Part shown: piece after piece, positions 7,985 through 51,025 of the stretch
Position numbering within the stretch: position 1 is the stretch's first letter
How the letters are laid out: each line of letters begins with the position of its first letter
Source: Actinotalea soli
Lineage (GTDB): Bacteria; Actinomycetota; Actinomycetes; Actinomycetales; Cellulomonadaceae
Direction: 5' to 3'
Length of the DNA stretch: 64,000 bases
Assembly (NCBI RefSeq): GCF_017565425.1
Contig: NZ_JAGEMK010000001.1
Coordinates: 62,001 to 126,000, forward strand
Notes under the pieces: generated by a model
The model's input: only the letters and a program-made list of their open reading frames with translations
Told to the model about the DNA's origin: nothing
The model's database searches: none
Position numbers and translations under genes: made by a program

Positions 7985-9352
7985 ATGGCCACGACCACCG
8001 GAGACCCCCGCACCCCGACCGCCCCCGCCCCCGCGGGCGCCGACCACCCCACGGCGCAGGACGAGGTCGCACGGATCTGCCAGGACCTGCTGCGGATCGA
8101 CACCTCCAACTACGGAGACGGCTCGGGCCCGGGGGAGCGCGCCGCGGCCGAGTACGTCATGGCCTCCCTGACGGAGGTGGGCCTGGACCCCGAGATCTTC
8201 GAGTCGGCCCCCGGCCGCGCGAGCGTGGTGGTCCGCCTGCCCGGCGTCGACGCCACCCGCGAGGCCCTCGTGCTGCACGGCCACACCGACGTCGTGCCCG
8301 CGGCCGCCGACGACTGGAGCGTGGACCCCTTCGGCGGCGAGGAGATCGACGGTCTGCTCTGGGGCCGTGGCGCCGTCGACATGAAGGACATGGACGCGAT
8401 GATCCTCGCGGTCGTGCGGCAGATGACCCGGGAGGGACGCCGACCTGCGCGCGACGTCGTCGTGGCCTTCTTCGCCGACGAGGAGGCGGGTGGGCGCTAC
8501 GGCGCTCGGTACGCGGTCGACCACCGCCCCGACCTCTTCGAGGGGGCCACCGAGGCGATCAGCGAGGTCGGCGGGTTCTCGGTCGAGGTGGGGGGGCACC
8601 GCGCCTACCTGCTGCAGACCGCCGAGAAGGGCATCGGGTGGCTCCGCCTCGTCGCCGACGGCCGTGCCGGCCACGGGTCCCAGGTCAACCACGAGAACGC
8701 CGTCACCCACCTCGCCGCCGCCGTCGCACGGATCGGCGCCCACCCGTGGCCGCTGCAGCTCACGCCCACCGTGCACGCCCTGCTCACCGGGGTCGCGGAC
8801 CTCACCGGCCTGCCCTTCGACCCCGAGGACGAGCAGTCCGTCGACCGGCTGGTCCACGCCCTGGGCCCCGCGGCGCGGTTCGTCGGGGCGACCACGCGGA
8901 ACACCGCCAACCCCACGCAGCTGAGCGCCGGGTACAAGGCCAACGTCATCCCGGGCAGCGCCGAGGCCGTGATCGACACCCGGTTCCTGCCCGGCTTCGA
9001 GGACGAGGCCCGAGCGGTGCTCGAGCGACTGGCGGGCGAGCACGTGCGGATCGAGGACGTGCACCGCGACGTGGCCCTCGAGGCCCCGTTCTCGGGCGGG
9101 CTGGTCGACGCGATGGTCGCGGCCCTACGGGTCGAGGACCCCGCGGCCAGCGTGCTGCCGTACACGCTCTCGGGGGGGACGGACAACAAGTCCCTCGCGC
9201 GCCTCGGGATCCGGGGCTACGGGTTCGCCCCGCTCCAGCTGCCGACCTCGCTGGACTTCTCGGCGATGTTCCACGGGGTGGACGAGCGGGTGCCCGTCGA
9301 GTCCCTGCGCTTCGGCGTGCGGGTCCTCGACCGGCTCCTCGCGACCTGCTGA
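7985..9352 (+). CDS. M20/M25/M40 family metallopeptidase
   Basis: The 455-residue protein carries the M20 signatures: HGHTDVVP (His100 and Asp102), the GRGAVDMKDM segment with the bridging Asp, DEEAGG with the catalytic Glu, and a terminal His in MFHGVDERVP. The family removes amino acids or acyl groups from peptides and amidated metabolites using two zinc ions; the exact substrate cannot be read off. The N-terminal 18 residues are Pro/Ala-rich and probably disordered. ATG 7985 is set by the leaderless promoter box. A hairpin terminator at 9369-9403 follows. Confidence 0.9.
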   Translation: MATTTGDPRTPTAPAPAGADHPTAQDEVARICQDLLRIDTSNYGDGSGPGERAAAEYVMASLTEVGLDPEIFESAPGRASVVVRLPGVDATREALVLHGHTDVVPAAADDWSVDPFGGEEIDGLLWGRGAVDMKDMDAMILAVVRQMTREGRRPARDVVVAFFADEEAGGRYGARYAVDHRPDLFEGATEAISEVGGFSVEVGGHRAYLLQTAEKGIGWLRLVADGRAGHGSQVNHENAVTHLAAAVARIGAHPWPLQLTPTVHALLTGVADLTGLPFDPEDEQSVDRLVHALGPAARFVGATTRNTANPTQLSAGYKANVIPGSAEAVIDTRFLPGFEDEARAVLERLAGEHVRIEDVHRDVALEAPFSGGLVDAMVAALRVEDPAASVLPYTLSGGTDNKSLARLGIRGYGFAPLQLPTSLDFSAMFHGVDERVPVESLRFGVRVLDRLLATC

Positions 9353-49800: not shown

Positions 49801-49816
49801 CCCCTCACCCTCCCAT

Positions 49817-49851
49817 CGGTGTCCCGGTCCGGCATGTCGACCGGGACACCG
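49817..49851 (-). terminator. 13-bp hairpin after the oxygenase gene
   Basis: CGGTGTCCCGGTC pairs perfectly with GACCGGGACACCG over a 9-nt loop. On the minus strand it lies 17 nt after the oxygenase stop and 16 nt before the small membrane-protein ATG. Confidence 0.65.
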
Positions 49852-49868
49852 CGGGGCAGGGAGAAGGG

Positions 49869-50891: not shown

Positions 50892-50941
50892 GGGAGATGC
50901 CTTACTGGTGAGTCGGGGGGGCTGGTCTGGGAGTCACGCGC

Positions 50942-51013
50942 TCAGCGCGGACACAGACAGCTCCCGGTGCGCAGCAGGTCCACATGGACGCGGCGCACGA
51001 GGACCAGAGGCAT
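50942..51013 (-). CDS. cysteine-containing leader peptide (putative attenuator)
   Basis: This 23-residue ORF reads MPLVLVRRVHVDLLRTG followed by SCLCPR. The RR-x-HVDLLR core and cysteine codons just before the stop recall the actinobacterial leader peptides placed before cysteine and sulfur-assimilation genes. ATG 51013 lies 6 nt after TAACCT (51020-51025), so the mRNA would be leaderless and start at this ATG. The stop codon sits in the loop of a CGCGC/GCGCG hairpin. The 2-oxoglutarate oxygenase gene begins 50 nt later. Role and ligand are inferred. Confidence 0.75.
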   Translation of the reverse strand: MPLVLVRRVHVDLLRTGSCLCPR

Positions 51014-51019
51014 GGCAGC

Positions 51020-51025
51020 AGGTTA
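51020..51025 (-). promoter_or_regulatory. -10 box (TAACCT) for the leader peptide-oxygenase transcript
   Basis: On the minus strand TAACCT lies 6 nt before the leader ATG 51013. It is about 40 bp from the divergent hydrolase promoter. Confidence 0.6.

Follow-up and report, generated by a model that had tools for sequence, protein, structure and literature searches.

The window analyzed here is a 64-kb stretch of the Actinotalea soli genome, in which a short ORF ending with Cys codons stands directly before the gene of an isopenicillin N synthase (IPNS)-like oxygenase (Table 1). This arrangement raises the question of why a cysteine-coding leader should precede such an enzyme, and what the leader may tell about the enzyme's role. 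Based on the evidence described below, we consider it highly probable that the leader is a cysteine-responsive attenuator, probably a translational one, and that the oxygenase it controls belongs to a cysteine/sulfur-supply regulon.

Table 1. Features of the leader and oxygenase locus in window coordinates
Feature	Coordinates	Strand	Comment
-10 box TAACCT	51020..51025	minus	transcription start expected at A of leader ATG
Leader peptide ORF, MPLVLVRRVHVDLLRTGSCLCPR and stop	50942..51013	minus	23 codons; NF042934 match; kept in orthologs
Leader 5' end AUGCCUCUGGU	51003..51013	minus	predicted pairing partner of the Shine-Dalgarno region of the oxygenase gene
Leader Cys codon 19 (UGU)	50957..50959	minus	
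Leader Cys codon 21 (UGU)	50951..50953	minus	
CGCGC-UGA-GCGCG hairpin around leader stop	50937..50949	minus	only partly shared by C106, otherwise not conserved
Oxygenase ribosome-binding region ACCAGUAAGGCAU	50897..50909	minus	Shine-Dalgarno AAGG 50903-50900; predicted sequestered
Oxygenase gene, 340 aa	49869..50891	minus	DIOX_N + 2OG-FeII_Oxy (PF14226/PF03171)
Strong hairpin after oxygenase stop	49812..49855	minus	z -4.9; no U tract

The TAACCT box is separated by 6 nt from the leader ATG (51013), and a gap of 50 nt lies between the leader stop and the oxygenase ATG (50891). On both strands of the window only three short ORFs begin 5-9 nt past a TANNNT box, and the oxygenase leader alone among them has two Cys in its last eight residues and an HVDL motif; in simulated sequence, 0.05 such Cys cases are expected per strand. 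A TANNNT box is located 6-7 nt before the ATG or GTG in all 13 HVDL-type leaders compared. Transcription is expected to start at the leader start codon. On re-reading the sequence, the ORF, peptide, box, spacing, stop and gap described in the first-pass annotation were all found as given there.

The same annotation had called the ORF a leaderless Cys-dependent leader of a kind known from actinobacteria, and a profile match bears this out. The peptide scores 28.6 bits against the NCBIfam model NF042934 "putative leader peptide" (category cis_reg_atten), above the curated cut-off of 27 bits, and by its sequence it is therefore a member of that kind; in a genome-wide translation search the score was 26.5 bits. 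No Rfam family matched. Cys-rich leaders of M. smegmatis, namely the Ms4527A and Ms5788A families, were reportedly described by Canestrari et al. (2020). The window leader falls far under the cut-offs of these two specific families. It shares with them and with NF042934 a leaderless short ORF, terminal Cys codons, an RR-HVDL core, and no intrinsic terminator found; it differs in the controlled gene, which is none of the classical sulfate or cysteine genes but encodes an uncharacterized Fe oxygenase. In M. smegmatis, leaderless leaders with Cys codons were described as Cys-responsive attenuators (PMC9031893; PMC13236596). Codon choice in the leaders is also distinctive: 20 of the 26 Cys codons in 13 leaders are UGU, as is the last Cys codon in 12/13, compared with 21/151 (14%) in the window genes. 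The nominal p of 7e-13 overstates independence, some of the 13 leaders being near-copies, but the bias still holds across genera.

Similar leaders occur in front of other genes. A second HVDL Cys leader of the host genome, MRNPWNLSARLHVDLRRQASASCPGAPAVRPA (L014, G000:C26, about 344.4 kb), precedes the gene of a symporter of the SDF family that may transport cystine, and it is conserved in three further Actinotalea genomes. G018 is an Actinotalea genome in which the oxygenase was not detected; its leader MPLVLVRRVHVDLLRTAGCLCRV (L054, G018:C2, about 42 kb) is almost identical to the oxygenase leader and precedes a pair of thioredoxin-like and DUF4395-like genes, as named from sequence reading. 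An HVDL match inside uvrB (L013) was discarded as antisense chance.

The oxygenase family is found in 20 of the 109 sampled genera of the host's order. Within Actinotalea, 9/19 genomes encode the oxygenase, and the leader precedes it in 8/9 of these; the same leader type stands before the oxygenases of Brachybacterium sp. Z12, Ornithinimicrobium (with a GTG start) and a further family (G019). The linkage that the first-pass annotation had suggested following across relatives is thus kept in the genus and in several other families. Oxygenases with HVDL-type leaders form one clade (98/95), of which 13/15 members have the leader, the exceptions being those of G016 and O. sediminis. Family f19 contains a separate oxygenase clade (100/100) with unrelated poly-Cys leaders, which end with TCRCCRR, SCRCCRR or TCCCCRR and lie about 180-230 nt upstream. 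Another type, a CC leader ending STCCG, is provided by MTQARTIILVSDRVVDYVLVSTSTCCG before the oxygenase of G034. Taken together, the leaders of the HVDL clade, f19 and G034 indicate that Cys-coding leaders are tied to this oxygenase family on at least three lineages. For comparison, only 3/306 neighboring genes in these loci pass a looser test (a leaderless ORF with Cys in the last 8 aa, within 300 nt of the gene). Judging from these comparisons, the pairing is not due to chance. The leader is missing before many oxygenase relatives (in Herbiconiux, Agreia and others); the enzyme can therefore do without it.

Compared with shuffled sequences, the leader RNA is far more stably folded (z of -4.95). 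In the predicted fold, the first codons of the leader pair with the ribosome-binding region of the oxygenase gene. Equivalent pairings formed by other letters are predicted in relatives, CUGGUG with CACCAG and, in Ornithinimicrobium F0845, GUGUUAGUCAUG with CAUGACUGACCAC. Each leader was compared with its own synonymous recodings: in 12/13, opening of the ribosome-binding region is predicted to be more difficult than in the recoded average, a difference that is individually significant in some of them. For the window leader alone, P is 0.09 for opening and 0.03 for the gain upon 5'-end occupancy. In most leaders, such occupancy is predicted to free the ribosome-binding site. Opening of the site by a single ribosome stalled at the Cys codons was also considered, and the predicted change is small except in K2; hence the model has to invoke queueing or some other mechanism, or else control at the level of transcription. 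Since occupancy of the 5' end frees the site and a lone ribosome at the Cys codons does little, we infer queued ribosomes. Two other elements had initially been put forward. The window does contain the CGCGC/GCGCG hairpin (50949-50937) as well as the complementary GGGAG and CTCCC stretches, but the 94%-identical C106 ortholog keeps them only in part and the other relatives not at all; given this lack of conservation, neither is likely to be functional. Beyond the gene, the strong hairpin after the oxygenase stop is possibly the end of its transcript.

Because the ribosome-binding site is predicted to pair with the first codons of the leader, folding favors translational attenuation. In this mechanism, transcription would begin at the AUG that opens the leader, and translation of the leader by 70S ribosomes would start at the very 5' end. 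When Cys-tRNA is plentiful, the leader would be translated fast, the RNA would refold so that the first leader codons pair with the ribosome-binding region, and little oxygenase would be made. When Cys-tRNA is scarce, ribosomes would be delayed at codons 19 and 21 (both UGU), and those queued behind would cover the 5' end, releasing the site and allowing the oxygenase to be made. The enzyme would then help to supply cysteine or reduced sulfur.

The oxygenase is assigned to the DIOX_N / 2OG-FeII_Oxy superfamily by its Pfam matches and by the HxD..H and RxS motifs; residues H198/D200/H255, R266, S268 and Y183 are conserved. AlphaFold models it with high confidence (pLDDT 93). Among solved structures, the nearest in fold are 9ovh, an ancestral enzyme of the ethylene-forming type, and 6jyv, a P. 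aeruginosa protein that carries the label IPNS, in agreement with the sequence search; ethylene-forming and tropolone enzymes also occur among the fold relatives. Neither fold nor motifs reveal whether 2-oxoglutarate is used; IPNS and ACC oxidase have the same fold, yet do not use it. With IPNS the oxygenase shares the fold, the Fe ligands and the RxS motif, but identity in the fold comparison is about 22-24%, and 9ovh and 6jyv are closer. Characterized IPNS proteins are far down the match list, and no peptide synthetase (NRPS, ACV synthetase) was recognized among the annotated neighbors; the protein was not classified as an IPNS enzyme. Nor was it classified as a TauD-type sulfonate dioxygenase (PF02668), which resembles it as an Fe oxygenase expected to act during sulfur starvation: the oxygenase has no PF02668 domain and belongs to other Pfam families, and the sulfite produced by TauD would meet no obvious reductase in this genome.

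Cys is absent from the window oxygenase and from nearly all orthologs, which also contain few Met; the three exceptions are over-long ORF calls with an extra N-terminal part. Low Cys and Met content was reported for sulfur-acquisition proteins (PMC7661421; PMC8557817), but about 5% of background proteins are equally sulfur-poor, so this counts as supporting evidence only. A separate observation concerns IdeR/DtxR-like (iron-regulator) boxes, e.g., TAAGGCATCCCTTACC, upstream of the oxygenases of one genus (L095, L097, L098, L100, L104), which may reflect iron control in that genus or be part of a neighbor.

Genes adjacent to the oxygenase in relatives support a link to cysteine and sulfur metabolism. 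In G016 the gene order is CBS, CGL and oxygenase, with overlapping stops and starts. In Brachybacterium the order is leader, oxygenase, CBS and CGL, with an overlap at the oxygenase-CBS junction, and a CE1758-family luciferase-like monooxygenase and a CE1759 FMN reductase are encoded divergently. (The cystathionine gamma-lyase gene of strain Z12, L020:8375-9531, looks frameshifted near 9136.) The LLM_CE1758/CE1759 pair also adjoins the oxygenase in Herbiconiux and in a genus of family f19 (g39). It is similar to the two-component systems of an FMNH2 monooxygenase and an FMN reductase represented by SsuD/SsuE, MsuE and SfnG; here such a pair is the neighbor and not the oxygenase itself. In Cryobacterium, cysK, cysE and the oxygenase lie on one strand, but a 125-nt gap precedes the oxygenase, so co-transcription with cysK-cysE is not certain. 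CBS of G016, cysK of Cryobacterium and the CE1758 genes were scanned for upstream Cys leaders, with a positive control, and none was found. Co-distribution of the oxygenase and LLM_CE1758 within the genus proved uninformative, as each of the 16 other Actinotalea genomes tested has LLM_CE1758.

The host genome (3.6 Mb, 100% complete) contains CBS, and neither a PAPS/APS reductase nor TauD was found in it. Its sole NIR_SIR protein, followed by a siroheme-synthase-like gene, looks like the nitrite reductase NirB from its length, sequence and neighbor, and the host apparently has no CysI-type sulfite reductase. The PAPS reductase domain is missing from 16/19 Actinotalea genomes, which suggests that the genus depends on reduced sulfur. 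Presence of the oxygenase shows no visible link with this loss (8/9 carriers and 8/10 non-carriers have no PAPS reductase). It is plausible that the oxygenase frees or uses sulfur from an organosulfur compound. A sulfonate seems the less likely substrate in this genome, because sulfite would be of little use in the apparent absence of these reductases; a thioether, a thiol or a related reduced compound is a better guess.

Several other explanations of the locus should be considered. That the short ORF is a mere bystander, or that its peptide acts elsewhere, so that its place before the oxygenase is accidental, we regard as very improbable: the many orthologs with no leader would agree with it, but the position is conserved in several families, three unrelated types of Cys leaders are found there, and both the low background rate and the UGU bias speak against it. 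Another possibility is that the leader does sense cysteine and the control is transcriptional, untranslated RNA past the leader stop letting Rho or another factor terminate before the oxygenase. Neither an intrinsic terminator nor a U tract was found between the leader and the oxygenase, the 50-nt gap is C-rich, and Rho was proposed for terminator-less actinobacterial Cys leaders (Seliverstov 2005, PMC1262725). Still, sequestration of the ribosome-binding region is predicted to exceed that in synonymous recodings, which Rho control would not need, and PMC13236596 refers to the work on M. smegmatis as translation attenuation. Transcriptional control of this type is thus unlikely, and translational attenuation remains our preferred reading.

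As for the role of the enzyme, the oxygenase may belong to the cysteine regulon and free no sulfur at all, oxidizing instead a thiol or amino acid for a redox or thiol cofactor, for the supply of an acceptor to CBS/CysK, or as a signal. The ortholog neighbors CBS, CGL, cysK and cysE act on cysteine synthesis and not on desulfurization, and ethylene-forming and tropolone enzymes are among the fold relatives; the flavin monooxygenase and FMN reductase neighbors and the Cys-free enzyme, on the other hand, fit sulfur scavenging. We view such a role as possible, if somewhat doubtful. With similar caution, we tentatively propose an unrecognized sulfur-scavenging family with this oxygenase as its founding member. 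In bacteria that do not reduce sulfate, its members would cleave a C-S bond in a thioether or thiol and pass reduced sulfur to CBS/CGL or CysK; on at least three lineages, unrelated Cys-codon leaders would have placed them under the control of cysteine.

In summary, the regulatory reading of the leader is well supported. In the literature searched, no function of this oxygenase family turned up, and no earlier connection of the oxygenase with cysteine control was found. The leader thus hints, through regulation, at what the family does, and it turns an "uncharacterized IPNS-like protein" into a testable cysteine-supply enzyme. A genome without PAPS/APS reductase raises the question of the sulfur source in such actinobacteria, and, if our reading is true, the oxygenase family would be an unrecognized part of their sulfur supply.
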